Shown in pieces: positions 2,907 through 34,120 of a stretch of DNA of 34,120 nt. The notes below the pieces were generated by a model. That model was not told where the DNA came from, made no database searches, and saw only the letters and a program-made list of their open reading frames with translations. Location of the stretch: contig JAFPME010000013.1 of the NCBI GenBank assembly GCA_017402445.1, positions 1 through 34,120 on the forward strand, read 5' to 3'. Source of the stretch: Prevotella sp. (GTDB taxonomy: Bacteria; Bacteroidota; Bacteroidia; Bacteroidales; Bacteroidaceae). A program made the translations under genes and the position numbers. Numbering within the stretch: the first letter of the stretch is position 1; each line of letters begins with the position of its first letter.

Positions 2907-3281
2907 CCTGAAAAAATAGGACATAAGGCTCGTTTTTGCCCTCCGTGAGTGCCATCGTTCTGAAATAAAAATCAGACGGACGCGTACACGCGAATTTTGA
3001 GAGTGTTATAATGTGCTGGAAACAAGCGCCTTGTGTTTTCTTTACATTTTCCTGCCTTCCAAAATGATTCATTTTACAATCGGAAATGGCCCATTTTGTC
3101 GCTCAGAATGAGTCATTCTGGCGAGCAGAATAGCTCATTTTACGACGTAAAATGGCTCATTTTGAAAAACGAAGTGTTTTTTGAGGCTTTCGAGAACGGT
3201 TTTTTTTGCTTTTTGATGCCTTTTTACTTCAAAAAACGAAGAAAAAATCTTGCAGGATTTTTCTGTCGTAAATGTTTACAG
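2907..3281 (-). repeat. 375-bp palindrome-array element, copy 1 (inverted)
   Basis: This is the reverse orientation of the elements at 16278-16651 and 29916-30290. Five imperfect palindromes of the type AAAATGGCCCATTTT have AATG (or AATA) cores starting at 3063, 3085, 3107, 3129 and 3151, exactly 22 bp apart. One flanking arm holds ATGTAAAGAAAACACAAG and ACGCGTCCGTCTGATTTT on the minus strand. The other arm is T-rich and ends in CAGGATTTTTCTGTCG on the plus strand. The arm with ATGTAAAG can be read on the minus strand as a peptide (about 2881-3072) similar to those in the other copies. The ends given are where the three copies stop aligning by eye. Confidence 0.85.
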
Positions 3282-3475: not shown

Positions 3476-4504
3476 ATGAACGCTGATAACAAATACATAC
3501 GATTCGACTGGGCCGTAAAGCGGATGCTTCGCGACAAGGCCAATTTTGGTGTGCTTGAAGGACTCATCACGGTGCTGCTCGGCGAGCCTGTGCACATAGT
3601 GGAACTCTTGGAGAGCGAGGGAAACCAGAACACCATCGACGACAAGTACAACCGTGTGGACATCAAGGCGAAGAACGACCGCGGCGAAATCTTTATCGTA
3701 GAGGTTCAGCTGACGCGCGAGCTGTACTATCTGGAGCGGATTCTTTACGGAACGGCGAAAGCCATTACGGAGCACATCAAGCTGGGGAGCACCTACGGCG
3801 ACATCAAGAAGGTGTATTCCATCAGCATTGTCTATTTCGATTTGGGGAAGGGTGCCGACTATCTGTATCACGGCGTGAGCCAGTTTACGGGTGTCCATAC
3901 GAAAGACACGCTGCGCATCAACGTGAAGGAGGAAGGTGTGATTCGCATGAAGACGCCCGAGGAACTGTTCCCCGAATACTTCATCATCCGCGTGAACGAA
4001 TTCAACAAGGTGGCCACCACACCGCTTGAGGAGTGGGTGGACTACCTGAAGAACGGCCATATCAAGGATGACACGGAGGCTCCCGGTCTGGCTGAAGCAC
4101 GCCAGAAGTTGCAGTACCTGATGATGAATGACAGGGACCGCCATGCCTACGACGAGCACCTGAATGCCATCATGATTCAGAACGACGTGCTCGGCACTGC
4201 GCGAATGGAAGGCATCGCTGAGGGCATCGCAGAAGGTCGCGCAAGAGGGCGTGAGGAAGGTCGCGCAGAAGGTCGTGCAGAAGGTCGTGCCGAAGGTCGT
4301 GCCGAAGGTCGTGCGGAGGGTCGTGCTGAAGGTCGCGCGGAGGGCCGTGCGGAGGGTCGCGCTGAAGGTCGTGCCGAAGGCATTGAGGCAGGTCGCGCGG
4401 AAGAAAGAGTGGAAGTGGCGCGAAAGCTGAAAGGAATGGGCTTGCCCACCGAAACCATCGTGGGTGCCACGGGTCTCAGTTGTGAAGAGATTGCTGAATT
4501 ATAA
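3476..4504 (+). CDS. Rpn family PD-(D/E)XK nuclease / putative transposase
   Basis: The 342-residue protein starts with KYIRFDWAVKRMLRDKANFGVLEGL, the usual opening of the PD-(D/E)XK transposase (Rpn) family. The active-site region is visible: Asp62 in NRVDIKAK, then Glu76 and Gln78 in IFIVEVQ, the E-x-Q variant of the D-ExK motif that is normal in this family. Rpn proteins are DNA endonucleases linked to RecA-independent recombination and, in some cases, phage defence; their transposase label is mostly historical. Residues of about 245-310 are low-complexity EGRA repeats, followed by a short helical tail (ARKLKGMGLPTETIVGATGLS) that is also typical. It stands alone with its own promoter and terminator, next to a repeat element. 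No terminal inverted repeats were seen, so mobility is not supported. Confidence 0.9.
   Translation: MNADNKYIRFDWAVKRMLRDKANFGVLEGLITVLLGEPVHIVELLESEGNQNTIDDKYNRVDIKAKNDRGEIFIVEVQLTRELYYLERILYGTAKAITEHIKLGSTYGDIKKVYSISIVYFDLGKGADYLYHGVSQFTGVHTKDTLRINVKEEGVIRMKTPEELFPEYFIIRVNEFNKVATTPLEEWVDYLKNGHIKDDTEAPGLAEARQKLQYLMMNDRDRHAYDEHLNAIMIQNDVLGTARMEGIAEGIAEGRARGREEGRAEGRAEGRAEGRAEGRAEGRAEGRAEGRAEGRAEGRAEGIEAGRAEERVEVARKLKGMGLPTETIVGATGLSCEEIAEL
4256..4375 (+). repeat. 12-bp in-frame tandem repeat encoding EGRA x10
   Basis: Ten consecutive 12-bp units (GAAGGTCGTGCN with third-position variation) encode ten EGRA tetrapeptides in the Rpn gene. Degenerate units (EGIA, RARG, EAGR) lie on both sides. 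Changes are mostly synonymous. Copy number is likely to vary between strains. Confidence 0.95.
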
Positions 4505-16277: not shown

Positions 16278-16651
16278 CTGTCAATATTTTTGACCGAAAA
16301 ATCGTGTATGGATTTTCTTTCATTTTTTGAGGATGAAAGCCTTTGTTTTGGTAAAAGAACTGAACAAAAAACCGACCGAGATGGCTCCGTTTTTCAAAAC
16401 GGCTCATTTTGCAGCTCGAAATGGGCCGTTTTGGCGAGCAGAATGGGCCGTTCTGAAGCGAAAAAAGGCTCGTTTTGAAGTTCAAAATGAGTCATTTTGG
16501 AACCGCTCAAAATGTAAAGAAAACACAAGTCGTTCGTTTCCAGCGGTTTGGCACTTCCGCGAGAATCGCGTGTACGCGTCCGCCGGATTTTTATTTCAGA
16601 ACGATGTCACTCACGGAGGCCCAAAACGGACTTTTTGTCAATATGTTTCAG
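16278..16651 (+). repeat. 375-bp palindrome-array element, copy 2
   Basis: The left arm starts CTGTCAATATTTTTGACCG and continues with ATGGATTTTCTTTC. Five palindromic units follow with cores at 16398, 16420, 16442, 16464 and 16486, spaced exactly 22 bp apart (for example CAGAATGGGCCGTTCTG). The right arm holds AATGTAAAGAAAACACAAG, then CGCGTGTACGCGTCCGCC, then GATTTTTATTTCAGAACG. The plus strand can be read through the right arm as a peptide (about 16475-16729) with TRPPDFYFRTMSLTE. The total of 374 bp matches the other copies. Confidence 0.85.
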
Positions 16652-25399: not shown

Positions 25400-25490
25400 C
25401 AGCGAACATTTCGGCAAAACGTTGTTTCGTAGAGGCGTTGTCTCGGGGAAGACGTGAAGTCGTTCTGTCAGAAAGAGAAAAACGTACATC

Positions 25491-25655
25491 GCAATAACGG
25501 TGCCCGATCAGGGCCGCCAAAGAGGGAACGGGGTGCAAATCCCCGACTGTCCCGCAGCTGTGAGCTCCCGTATGGCCGCAAGCTACAAGCCACTGAGAGT
25601 GAATCTCGGGAAGGCGCTTGCGGTGGAGTAAGTCAGAAGACCTGCCGTTGCTTGC
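25491..25655 (+). ncRNA. Cobalamin (adenosylcobalamin) riboswitch
   Basis: The conserved core is present in order: AAAGAGGGAAC, GGTGCAAATCC, GACTGTCCCGCAGCTGTGA, GCCACTG, CGGGAAGGC and the B12 box AGTCAGAAGACCTGCC at 25631-25646. The closing stem P1 can be drawn between GCAATAACGG (25491-25500) and CCGTTGCTTGC (25645-25655). It binds a cobalamin and switches off the downstream genes when B12 is plentiful. Its position directly ahead of a TonB-dependent receptor and a btuG-like gene fits known Bacteroidetes B12 uptake operons. Confidence 0.95.
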
Positions 25656-25671
25656 TCCATTGTTTCACTAC

Positions 25672-25705: not shown

Positions 25706-27727
25706 ATGAGGAAAAAAGTATTGGCAGGACTGTTGCTCGCCTGTCCGCTGTGCGTTGCTGCGCAGACGGCCGGCGGCGACACGCTCGACGCAAAGGCAGA
25801 GCAGCTGCCGTCGTTGACCGTCACCGAGAGCCGACGCCAGCAGCAGCTACGCAGCACGGCGCCGCTCCATGTGCTGGGTCACGGCGACTGGTTGCAGATG
25901 GGTCTGACCGACATGGCTGGTGCGCTGCACCGCCTGCCGGGCATCACGCTGCGCGACTACGGCGGCGCCGGCGGCATGAAGACGGTCTCCGTGCGCGGCT
26001 TCGGTGCCCAGCACACGGGCGTCAGCTACGACGGTCTGCTGCTGAGCGAGTGCCAGAGCGGTGAGATCGACGTGTCGCGCTATTCGTTGGACAACGTCGA
26101 GCAGCTCTCGCTCATCGTCGGCGACAACGACGACATCTTCATTCCGGCGCGACAGGCCAGCATGGCCGCCACGCTGAACATCGAGACTTGGGGCACCGGC
26201 AGGCCGCGCGAAGGCGAAAAAACGCCCATTTCATCGGCCGTTCACGCCCAGCTGAAGGCAGGCTCGTTCGGCTATGTGAGCCCCTACGTGCGCTACGAGC
26301 AGTGGCTGTCCGACCGCTTCGCCCTGTCGGCGATGGGCGAGTACGTGCATGCGGAGAACGACTATCCGTTCACGCTGCGCAACGTCACGCTCACCACGCG
26401 CGAACGCCGCACCAACAGCCGCATGAACCAGGGCCACGCCGAGCTGAACTTCCTCTGGAAGACGGACTCCAAGGGCGAGCTGGCCGGTAAGGCCTACTAC
26501 TACGACAACGACCGTCAGCTGCCAGGACAGGTGCGCTACTACACCAACCTGAGCAACGAGACGCTCCACGACCGCAACGCCTTCGGGCAGCTGCGCTTCC
26601 AGACACGGTGGAACGACCGCTGGGCGCTGAAGTGGCAGGGGCGCGCCACGTGGAGCGAGAGCCGCTACAACGACGGACTGGTGGCCTCGCAGGTGCAGGA
26701 CGGCAACTACTGGCAGCGCGAATACTACACGACGGCCTGCCTGCTCTACGCGCCGACCGACCGTTGGACGCTCGACTACTCGGCCGACTACAGCTACGCG
26801 AGCCTGAACAGCTCGCTGACCACCGACACGAGGCCCTACCGCCACACGCTGCTGCAGTCCGTCACGGCCAAATACCGCACAGGACGGCTCACGGTGCTGG
26901 GCCGTCTGCTTGTGTCGCTCTATCTGAACGGCGCCCGCACAGGTGCCTCGGCGCGCGACATGCGGCGCTTGTCGCCCTCGCTGTCAGCATCGTACAAGGT
27001 GCTCAGCGACGAGGAACTCTACGTCCGCGCGTCGTACAAGAACATCTTCCGCGCGCCGACGTTCAACGAGAGCTACTTCTTCCACTACGGAAGCACCAAC
27101 CTGAAGCCCGAGAGCACCGACCAGATGAACATCGGGGTGACCTACCAGCCGCGCCGCGCCACCGGCCGCTCGCCGCTCTACACGTTCACGCTCGACGCTT
27201 ACATGAACCACGTGGAGGATAAAATCGTGGGCGTGCCGTTCAACATGTTCGTCTGGACCTGCATCAACGTGGGGAAGGTGCGCACACTGGGACTCGACGC
27301 CACGGCCAAGGGCTCGTGGACGCTGACCGACCGGCAACAGCTGACGGCCTCGGGCAACTACAGCCTGCAGCGCGTGCAGAACCGCACGAACCCCGAGTCG
27401 GCCTACTACGGCAACCAGCTGGCTTACATGCCCGTCCATTCGGGCGCATGCTCCGTGGGATGGATGAACCCGTGGGTGAACGTGACGCTCAGCGGCGAGG
27501 GCGTGAGTCGGCGATGGGGCACGAACGAGCACTACGACGAAACGCAGATTGACGGCTACTTCGAGCTGGGTGCCACGGTGTGGAAAACGTTCACACTGGG
27601 CCACGGCAAGCGGAAACGGAGCCTCGAGGTGCGCTTCGACTTGAAGAACCTGCTCGACAAGCAGTACGAGATTGTCCGTCTCTACCCGATGCCCGGGCGC
27701 AGCTGGATGGTGACGGTGAAGATATAG
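25706..27727 (+). CDS. btuB: BtuB-like TonB-dependent vitamin B12 receptor
   Basis: The 673-residue outer-membrane protein has a signal peptide (MRKKVLAGLLLACPLCVAAQ) and, unlike SusC, no carboxypeptidase-regulatory domain. The TonB box area is LPSLTVTESR near residue 34. The plug follows with LHRLPGITLRDYGGAGGMKTVSVRGFGAQHTGVSYDG (quoted in order, residues about 75-112). The remainder is a 22-strand-type barrel with many aromatic and Arg-rich strands, ending LLDKQYEIVRLYPMPGRSW, the normal TonB-receptor terminal region. Placement under a cobalamin riboswitch and ahead of a btuG-like gene supports cobalamin as substrate. Its base composition is notably GC-rich compared with its neighbours. 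The stop lies in a GC-rich repeat. Confidence 0.93.
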   Translation: MRKKVLAGLLLACPLCVAAQTAGGDTLDAKAEQLPSLTVTESRRQQQLRSTAPLHVLGHGDWLQMGLTDMAGALHRLPGITLRDYGGAGGMKTVSVRGFGAQHTGVSYDGLLLSECQSGEIDVSRYSLDNVEQLSLIVGDNDDIFIPARQASMAATLNIETWGTGRPREGEKTPISSAVHAQLKAGSFGYVSPYVRYEQWLSDRFALSAMGEYVHAENDYPFTLRNVTLTTRERRTNSRMNQGHAELNFLWKTDSKGELAGKAYYYDNDRQLPGQVRYYTNLSNETLHDRNAFGQLRFQTRWNDRWALKWQGRATWSESRYNDGLVASQVQDGNYWQREYYTTACLLYAPTDRWTLDYSADYSYASLNSSLTTDTRPYRHTLLQSVTAKYRTGRLTVLGRLLVSLYLNGARTGASARDMRRLSPSLSASYKVLSDEELYVRASYKNIFRAPTFNESYFFHYGSTNLKPESTDQMNIGVTYQPRRATGRSPLYTFTLDAYMNHVEDKIVGVPFNMFVWTCINVGKVRTLGLDATAKGSWTLTDRQQLTASGNYSLQRVQNRTNPESAYYGNQLAYMPVHSGACSVGWMNPWVNVTLSGEGVSRRWGTNEHYDETQIDGYFELGATVWKTFTLGHGKRKRSLEVRFDLKNLLDKQYEIVRLYPMPGRSWMVTVKI

Positions 27728-29133: not shown

Positions 29134-29154
29134 TCGCTACAGCAATCTTCATTT

Positions 29155-29906
29155 GTCTACGGACTTTTCGGACCCATAGGACTTTTAACACGCAAGAGTC
29201 CCAAAAGTCCTAAAAGTCCGTAGACCTTTTTTAATACACAAGTGCAATGCCCTGCGCGTAGTATTTAGTCTACGGACTTTTCGGACTCAAAGGACTTTAA
29301 AGAAACTCCCCACCAGGATAGTCCTAAAAGTCCCGAAAGTCTGTAGACTTTTTTATATACAAGTGCAATGCCCTGCGCGTGTTTTTTAGTCTACGGACTT
29401 TTGGGACCCAAAGGACTTTAAAGAAACTCCCCACCTGAATAGTCCTAAAAGTTCTGAAAGTCCGTAGACTTTTTTATATACAAGTGCAGCGCCCTGCGCG
29501 TAGTTTTTGTCTACGGACTTTTCGGACCCATAGGACTATTAACACACAAGAATCCCAAAAGTCCTGAAAGTCCGTAGACTTTTTTATATACAAGTGCAGT
29601 GCCCTGCGCGTATTTTTTAGTCTACGGACTTTTGGAACTCAAAGGACTTTAAAGAAACTCCCCACCTGAATAGTCCAGAAAGTCCTGAAATTCCGTAGAC
29701 CTTTTTAATACACAAGTGCATACCCTGCGCGTATTTTTTAGTCTACGGACTTTTCGGACTATAAGGACTTTAAAGACAACCAACACATGAAGAGTCCTAA
29801 AAGTCCTAAAAGTCCGTAGACTAAAAAAGCAAGGCCGAAAGTCCGTAGACAATTATAAGTACAACAGGAGTAATAGTCCCAAAAGTCCAAAAAGTCTGTA
29901 GATTTT
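29155..29906. repeat. Six tandem hairpin units of 111-121 bp
   Basis: Units begin with GTCTACGGACTTTT at 29155, 29268, 29389, 29509, 29620 and 29741. Each unit is an inverted repeat: GTCTACGGACTTTT...GGAC pairs with GTCC...AAAAGTCCGTAGAC some 45-50 bases later. The hairpin is followed by a T-run and a linker with AAGTGCA and CCCTGCGCGTA. Two interior types occur: a short one (units 1 and 4, TTAACAC...AAGA) and a long one (units 2, 3, 5 and 6, TTTAAAGA...). Extra degenerate half units extend to 29906. Each hairpin resembles a terminator, so transcription from btuG probably ends here. Confidence 0.92.
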
Positions 29907-29915
29907 AAGTATAAA

Positions 29916-30290
29916 CTGTCGGAATATTTTACCGAAAAATCCTGTCAGATTTTTCTTTCGTTTTAGAAGTCCGAAGGCTTCCGAAAACGCAAACAATCCG
30001 TCTTTTTTCACCGCCAAAACCGACCTGATTTTCAGAATGGGCCGTTTTGCATCGCAGAATGGGCCATTCTGCTCGTCAAAATGAATCATTCTGTTCGATG
30101 AAATGGCCCATTTTGAGAGGTAAAATGGCCCATTTAGCAAGCCCAAAAAATGTAAAGAAAATACAAGTCGTTTGTTTTCAGGTTTTTAAAAACCTCTCAA
30201 AATTCGCGCGTACGCGTCCGCCTGATTTTTATTTCAGAAAACGGGCACTCTCAGAGCACTTTTTCGACTTTTTTGTCAGCATTTTTCCGA
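29916..30290 (+). repeat. 375-bp palindrome-array element, copy 3
   Basis: The left arm begins CTGTCGGAATATTTTACCG and continues CAGATTTTTCTTTCG. Five palindromic units have AATG cores at 30036, 30058, 30080, 30102 and 30124, exactly 22 bp apart (for example CAGAATGGGCCATTCTG). The right arm holds AATGTAAAGAAAATACAAG, CGCGCGTACGCGTCCGCC and GATTTTTATTTCAGAAA. The plus strand through the right arm reads as a peptide (about 30047-30307) with TRPPDFYFRKRALSE. The element starts 10 bp after the tandem hairpin array ends. Confidence 0.85.
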
Positions 30291-33947: not shown

Positions 33948-34120
33948 GTCTACGGACTTTTCTGCTGCTGTTTTCTTTATGTCTACGGACTTTACGGACT
34001 TTACGGACTTTTCTGCTGCTGTTTTCTTTATGTCTACGGACTTTACGGACTTTACGGACTTTTCTGCTGCTGTTTTCTTTATGTCTACGGACTTTACGGA
34101 CTTTACGGACTTTTCTGCTG
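33948..34120. repeat. 51-bp tandem repeat running off the window edge
   Basis: GTCTACGGACTTT starts at 33948, 33981, 34032 and 34083. The full unit is GTCTACGGAC, TTTACGGAC twice, then TTTTCTGCTGCTGTTTTC and TTTAT; the first unit has a single TTT step and is 33 bp. The array continues beyond 34120. Its core equals that of the six hairpin units after the btuG-like gene, but here the repeat is direct and not palindromic. Confidence 0.92.

Follow-up and report, generated by a model that had tools for sequence, protein, structure and literature searches.

Arrays of protein-binding units phased by whole helical turns are represented by the 22-bp iterons of R6K and by sopC of F, and such plasmid iteron or centromere arrays occur once per replicon, beside their own rep or par genes. 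The extragenic palindromes termed REP, BIME or REPIN have, to our knowledge, no fixed 22-bp ladder. According to the accessible parts of their descriptions, they are present in high copy, regularly spaced within BIMEs, bound by several proteins and tied to RAYT tyrosine transposases (PMC2817692, PMC3116915). Within the Bacteroidales, the BrickBuilt MITE of Porphyromonas gingivalis is an intergenic element with a leader, 23-nt repeats and a tail, found in 19 forms in one strain (PMC4596501, available sections). The closest described system is PINSR, a 188-bp intergenic non-coding repeat reported as being of unknown function and present 177 and 184 times in the genomes of two P. intermedia strains (3.15 and 2.70 Mb). 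In the accessible portion of its account (PMC4755523), PINSR lacks inverted ends, occupies conserved places in about three-quarters of cases, is absent from most strain-specific regions, lies downstream of tnaA in P. intermedia, is credited with some role in rearrangements and is stated to be limited to one clade; that portion makes no mention of palindromes, a 22-bp phase or even spacing. The name PINSR returned one paper only in a literature search, and the accessible open literature on evenly spaced, palindromic or 22-bp repeats in Prevotella and other bacterial chromosomes yielded no such phase or spacing beside PINSR.

Here we describe a repeat found in a 34,120-nt stretch of Prevotella DNA (the window). 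An initial annotation had reported three copies of an element consisting of a T-rich arm, five palindromes spaced by exactly 22 bp and a conserved arm. These copies are real, with ends placed within one base by nhmmer (E 1e-116 to 3e-118 against a profile made from those same three copies), and all sit between longer ORFs, the overlapping ORFs being short throughout (Table 1). The element shares the leader–repeat–tail plan of BrickBuilt, which differs, in the available text, in its IS-like terminal inverted repeats and in its variable number of 23-nt repeats (84–991 nt) that follow one another without spacers. In contrast to plasmid iteron or centromere arrays, about 50 arrays are present here per 800 kb of chromosome.

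Table 1. Positions of the element copies and their parts in the window.
Feature	Position	Strand	Details
Family-1 element, copy 1 (subfamily A)	2907..3281	-	375 bp; 385 bits
Copy 1 array, five palindromes	3060..3164	-	centres 3156, 3134, 3112, 3090, 3068 (22-bp steps); family centres mapped onto the window by hand, first centre confirmed by eye
Copy 1 conserved arm (tail)	2907..3057	-	about 150 bp; + strand reads TTTTCTTTACAT, CGCGTACACGCG, TTCTGAAATAAAAATC
Family-1 element, copy 2 (subfamily A)	16278..16651	+	374 bp; 390 bits
Copy 2 array	16395..16499	+	centres 16403, 16425, 16447, 16469, 16491; mapped by hand from the family, first centre confirmed
Copy 2 conserved arm	16505..16651	+	contains ATGTAAAGAAAA, CGCGTGTACGCG, GATTTTTATTTCAGAA
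Family-1 element, copy 3 (subfamily A)	29916..30290	+	375 bp; 386 bits
Copy 3 array	30033..30137	+	centres 30041, 30063, 30085, 30107, 30129; mapped by hand from the family, first centre confirmed
Copy 3 T-rich arm	29916..30032	+	about 117 bp

The three copies are part of a much larger family (family 1), whose recurrence in the window's own genome (G000) is far beyond chance. This genome is a MAG of 1,866,360 bp in 44 contigs, 50.7% complete. A search with copy 2 returned at least 40 places at E ≤ 4.8e-40, the query included, among the 40 of 92 candidates that were scored, together with at least 22 further, shorter matches that represent arrays on the opposite strand. With an iterated profile, 39 copies were counted in 801,628 bp (43% of the MAG); extrapolation suggests that the whole assembly may hold about 90, a figure that may be too high because contigs were chosen partly for holding copies. 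The element ends are sharp, conservation rising at TTGTAAAtATTT and falling past AATTCAG, and the common ends, fixed length and intergenic placement bear out its status as a true element. The family palindrome, AAAATG..CATTTT, matched with at most one mismatch 148 times inside arrays and 4 times outside them in 802 kb of G000, and the palindromes are therefore not the sites of an ordinary gene regulator. Two subfamilies of equal length, A (all three window copies) and B, differ over the last ~50 bp. Subfamily B forms part of a longer repeat whose inverted ends are ACGCCAGTTCGG / CCGAACTGGCGT (L009, L010, L013, L014, L016, L022 and other B loci). Near subfamily-B loci we also noted ACGTGAGTTCGA, which resembles TCGAACTCACGT, one of the ends tabulated for IS and MITE elements of P. 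gingivalis (PMC4596501, available sections).

Geometry, pairing, length and reading frames were analyzed in an alignment of 43 of 48 copies; the five omitted copies lack the tail motif, so that the set may favour conserved copies. Palindrome centres fall at element positions 127, 149, 171, 193 and 215 across the 43 family members, with weaker two-fold centres halfway between, and the motifs noted in the conserved arm of the window copies are kept in the family alignment. The array measures exactly 112 bp in 42 of 43 copies, the exception (L021) being longer by 22 bp, that is, by one unit; arm length is unchanged in 39/43 copies on the left and 40/43 on the right. Mean pairwise identity is 73%, corresponding to ~101 substitutions per pair, and gap events number 0.38 per pair without L021 and 0.51 with it. 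Length and phase are thus held while letters drift, and the constant spacing of variable units proposed for three copies extends to the family. In an indel control, which is weak, flanks of subfamily B (14/19 copies kept) gave 17 substitutions per gap and the core of these copies 39, the latter figure being lowered by window trimming. The first of the features expected of a phased operator array, a whole-turn phase kept while sequence varies, is accordingly present in family 1. No conserved reading frame was found in the 43 aligned copies: one frame is open across the whole element in five of them and no other frame in any, and a coding element was rejected on this ground.

Arrays of the same period were then sought de novo, by scanning for four palindromes at a fixed period with array score cut-offs of 22 or 21. 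In 802 kb of G000 (score ≥ 22), 50 arrays occurred at 22 bp versus 0–4 at periods of 17–21 and 23–28 bp, with harmonics at 33 bp (24) and 44 bp (32). Thirty-eight of the 50 are family-1 copies; the remainder include two further families, GCAATTTCAGTGAAATTGC and TGACCANNGCNTGGTCA, several of them lying in gaps of family 1. A congener assembled as a single contig of 2.73 Mb (G376) showed 25 arrays at 22 bp in 400 kb, versus 0–3 at other periods and 0 in a block shuffle, most of them formed by AAAAGTTNAACTTTT, a palindrome unlike that of family 1. P. nigrescens (NZ_CP082843.1) carried 13 arrays of score ≥ 22 in 200 kb versus 0–1 at other periods, and the sister species Prevotella sp. UBA2756 (G061, also G250) carried 16 in 378 kb versus 0–1, in stretches chosen for holding copies. 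Twelve arrays of score ≥ 21 were present in 80 kb of G110, two arrays were found in 20 kb of G087, and G172 and G371 each had at least one of score ≥ 22 in 20 kb, with few or none in G024 (~100 kb), G373 and G275 (20 kb each). At one place in G371 (L205, 5268) we observed a near-perfect 22-bp tandem repeat, CAACCACCATTCTATTGCAATA, possibly a decayed or a new array. Among 28 congener loci, 25 had 22 bp as their best period (range 16–30), 18 of these with a score ≥ 22; as the loci were recruited with a profile of the 22-bp element, they are not independent evidence.

The element profile matched 121 of 398 genus genomes at E ≤ 0.001 (own genome included, at most three candidates scored per genome), and many of the matches listed in genus genomes cover the array only. 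At family level, two of 101 genomes matched at E ≤ 1e-5: that of the window itself and, weakly, one from a different genus. A 20-kb stretch sampled from another genus in this family contained no 22-bp array. Farther out, no 22-bp arrays of score ≥ 21 were found in 240 kb from three genomes that belong to other families within the order, and 13 order-level stretches (~198 kb, three of them < 6 kb) gave two matches of score 21 and none above. BLAST of the window family against 59 relatives gave no match. An exact-pattern search, from which the own genome was possibly omitted, returned no genomes other than Prevotella sp. UBA2746, with one copy, and UBA2756, which has ~35–40 places of the window family. 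Strong full-length family-1 matches were found only in G000, the sister species and UBA2746. The sister species keeps both the common ends and the 22-bp spacing, the two features whose loss in other genomes the initial annotation had said would speak against the element, and related species have the same ladder layout with different palindrome letters. This between-species exchange of the palindrome sequence, like the even chromosomal spacing described below, adds to the earlier account. Phages or plasmids were also considered as the origin, and copy 2 had no match in collections of either, nor did one exact tail pattern in viral contigs.

The array in G110 probably links these ladders to PINSR. 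It lies ~300 bp downstream of tnaA (L173, ~1130–1215), which is the published PINSR location (PMC4755523, accessible portion), and the G110 repeat, a 22-bp palindrome array, has matches in the plasmids collection to two P. nigrescens records and no others. Because the tnaA location fits and the matches fall in P. nigrescens, a published carrier, PINSR is very probably a member of the 22-bp array class, as judged from location and host. The statement that no element of this layout had been described had therefore overlooked PINSR, since the P. nigrescens repeat, very probably PINSR itself, has palindromes spaced by 22 bp. Both PINSR and family 1 are intergenic, non-coding and present in high copy (about one per 15–18 kb for PINSR, 39 copies per 802 kb for family 1), whereas PINSR has 188 bp, four units and the palindrome GCAAAA..TTTTGC, against 375 bp and five units in family 1. 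They also differ in that the plasmids collection, which includes the P. nigrescens repeat, has no match to copy 2.

Whole-unit variation is also seen in a second species. In G376, 17 arrays are delimited by the same outer half-sites, and the lengths of 16 of them differ by whole multiples of the 22-bp unit; of 70 steps from one match to the next, 69 measure 22 bp and one 23 bp. At the scan threshold, arrays comprise 4–6 units in G000 (five in 35/50), 4–7 in G376 (four in 17/25), four in 13/13 arrays of P. nigrescens, five in 15/16 of G061 and 4–6 in G110. The initial annotation had left two readings side by side, a DNA bound by protein at several sites or a folded RNA. An RNA helix should tolerate G.U above A.C, to which a double-stranded operator is indifferent. 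Over arms 1–9 of the five units (n = 1,935 pairing cells), we counted 1,426 Watson-Crick pairs, 151 G.U, 142 A.C and 216 others. As G.U is no commoner than A.C, a DNA site is favoured over an RNA fold; length changes, almost always by whole 22-bp units, likewise favour the first of the two readings, and this pairing count, made without an RNA positive control, removes the second as first choice. We give about an even chance to phased operator arrays that would serve dedicated, fast-evolving DNA-binding proteins, most likely in structuring the chromosome.

The genomic setting bears on two other explanations. Array centres are intergenic in 29/50 cases in G000 (all families) and 22/25 in G376, versus 8–10% of random points (crude ORF call). 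Convergent gene pairs flank 15/24 arrays in G376 and 18/48 in G000; among gaps ≥ 250 bp, arrays included, the convergent share is 22/66 and 23/93, respectively. In P. nigrescens, 15 of 17 arrays of score ≥ 21 are intergenic, with five convergent, five divergent and five tandem pairs, and two lie in short hypothetical genes, as assessed by hand from an incomplete gene table. A transcribed RNA element or a bidirectional hairpin terminator could exploit palindromes able to form short hairpins and would suit the mostly convergent setting in G376; the even split of orientations in P. nigrescens, the G.U count and the lack of any Rfam family on the element at gathering score in a search of the window weigh against it, hairpins need no fixed helical phase, and we regard it as highly improbable. 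The autocorrelation of AA/TT shows maxima at lags of 11, 22 and 33 in each of the five genomes tested, and AA and TT are nearly invariant at arm positions 4–5 of family 1. Together with the mostly intergenic placement and the convergent pairs common in G376, this phasing could point to curved or gyrase-type DNA that sets supercoiling domains without a dedicated protein. Curvature, however, needs neither palindromic symmetry nor several palindrome families per species, and family 3 of G000 (TGACCANNGCNTGGTCA) is G+C-rich and without A-tracts; such a purely physical site is unlikely, if less so than the RNA alternative.

We next analyzed the distribution of arrays along the chromosome, using as intergenic null a random placement in intergenic gaps, with genes taken from crude ORF calls and array matches in long ORFs dropped (47/50 kept in G000). 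For all families in G000, the coefficient of variation (CV) of spacings was 0.53 versus 1.04 expected (P 0.0005), with 2/38 spacings < 7 kb versus 15 expected; in G376 it was 0.42 versus 1.07, with 0/2000 simulations as low and 2/24 spacings < 7 kb versus 9.8. Family 1 alone in G000 gave 30 spacings with a minimum of 9,988 bp, none < 9 kb versus 12 expected, and a CV of 0.59 versus 0.97 (P 0.0008). Spacing CVs reached P 0.012 in P. nigrescens and P 0.04 in G061 (8 spacings) under the intergenic null, and were not significant under a uniform null (P 0.06 and 0.11). When family 1 and the two further palindrome families are combined, the median spacing is ~14 kb, with few < 7 kb. None of 10 family-2/3 arrays is closer than 7.7 kb to family 1 (P 0.005), and the smallest overall spacing has P 0.0003 (uniform null). 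This cross-family test used 10 of 14 non-family-1 rows, omitting one 11-bp-period repeat and three matches in C42 and C29 that on visual inspection were taken for coding sequence or chance; the distances of these three doubtful matches to a family-1 copy are 5.6, 6.6 and 7.7 kb. For one family over 0–710 kb of G376 (27 arrays), 0/26 spacings were < 7 kb versus 6.1 expected (P 0.0004), a count that sets aside, from 30 places, three with a single match, one of them 2.8 kb from an array; here the CV of 0.88 (P 0.32) was not more regular than random.

Comparison with the sister species revealed turnover. G000 and the sister species share one family-1 site, and at four places with matching flanks the array is present in one species only; each of the 16 sister-species copies has a paralogue that it resembles more closely than it does any of the 48 G000 copies. 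Several synteny breaks were observed at elements, possibly by chance. Among distant species, four of six comparisons had shared gene pairs, 27 without an array and one with an array in one species, too few to be informative. The turnover of positions and the scarcity of arrays in some congeners speak against a structural role, and the species-specific clustering of copies also fits an expanding mobile family. The main rival is a non-autonomous mobile element, whose palindromes would be bound by a trans-acting transposase or recombinase and whose spacing would come from target immunity or from recombinational loss of close copies. The filled and empty sites, the expansion within species, the sharp common ends, the larger unit with inverted ends around subfamily B and the synteny breaks all suit it. 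Against it, target-site duplications of k = 3–9 bp were not found beyond shuffled pairs in 45 copies, and terminal inverted repeats are weak (0.52 identity over 20 nt versus 0.41 ± 0.10 for inner segments). Exact empty-site junctions could not be read, the intergenic DNA of the sister species being too diverged. A mobile element explains turnover and species-specific expansion well, and explains less well the length held by diverged copies, unlike dead insertions, and the separation common to unrelated palindrome families. We therefore hold it to be possible, though on balance doubtful; the two accounts can also be combined, as a mobile family whose copies are retained because they are useful.

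Candidate partner proteins were searched in several genomes. One match to Y1_Tnp exceeded the family cut-off in G000 (31 bits), which lends more weight to the mobile element, and one did so in G087; none was over the cut-off in G376, G110, G172, G250 (76% complete) or G024. A Y1/RAYT transposase as general partner was rejected, being absent from four of the five other array-bearing genomes searched, and the arrays differ in this respect from REPs and REPINs. Extra ParB paralogues were likewise rejected, each of 10 genomes having a single ParB_N match; a single ParB is also present in three sampled genomes from outside the genus, where no array was found. The pattern WATCAANNNNTTR, which we take to be an IHF-like site, occurs, allowing one mismatch, no farther than 200 bp from 16/25 arrays in G376 (background 30%), 23/50 in G000 (14%), 11/12 in G110 (38%), 6/13 in P. 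nigrescens (23%) and 0/2 in G087 (25%). Exact matches accompany four arrays in G376, none in G000, four in G110, two in P. nigrescens and none in G087, and the sites in G000 are located near element ends. These counts give a hint of IHF-like sites beside arrays.

In the operator-array reading that we prefer, each copy would serve as the DNA platform for assembly of a defined nucleoprotein complex. The palindromic operators, commonly four to six in number (five in family 1) and set at a 22-bp phase of two helical turns, would hold dimers of a dedicated DNA-binding protein in a row along one face of the helix, with AA/TT every 11 bp and arms of fixed length. Lying mostly between genes every 10–20 kb, with different palindrome families keeping apart, such sites would act as regular structural points (loop anchors, topological barriers or segregation handles) and not as operators of particular genes. 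Since the palindrome is common within a genome and different between species, the specificity of the putative protein would have to co-evolve with it. More tentatively, and with rather less confidence than the operator reading itself, we propose that many Prevotella species run a dedicated chromosome-structuring system of ~100–200 evenly spaced intergenic sites per genome. Its operator ladders at two turns would have their letters swapped as a set in each lineage, coexisting families would observe a common exclusion of ~7–10 kb, the proteins would co-evolve, and PINSR would be one visible case. If true, this would be a new way to organise a bacterial chromosome, a conserved architecture with turnover of letters, in a genus prominent in the gut, mouth and rumen. 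Were it instead a mobile element, the family would still be unusual for its fixed geometry, the absence of detected target-site duplication and the separation common to unrelated families. PINSR, for its part, gains a testable mechanism: a ladder of putative protein sites, whose binding protein could be fished with a 110-bp DNA probe.

Several other features were observed in the window. A 21-bp tandem repeat (7.5 copies, 2737–2893) directly adjoins element copy 1. Beside this copy, at 3476–4504 (+), is a gene for a PD-(D/E)XK family transposase-like protein (PF12784) that contains 12-bp and 36-bp tandem repeats (4229–4403). Long tandem repeats at 29152–29822 and 33951–34120 (121-bp and 51-bp units) have the motif GTCTACGGACTTT in common, the second reaching the contig end. 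The only Rfam match in the window at gathering score is a cobalamin riboswitch (RF00174, 105.6 bits) at 25482–25663 (+), ahead of the ORF at 25706–27727.
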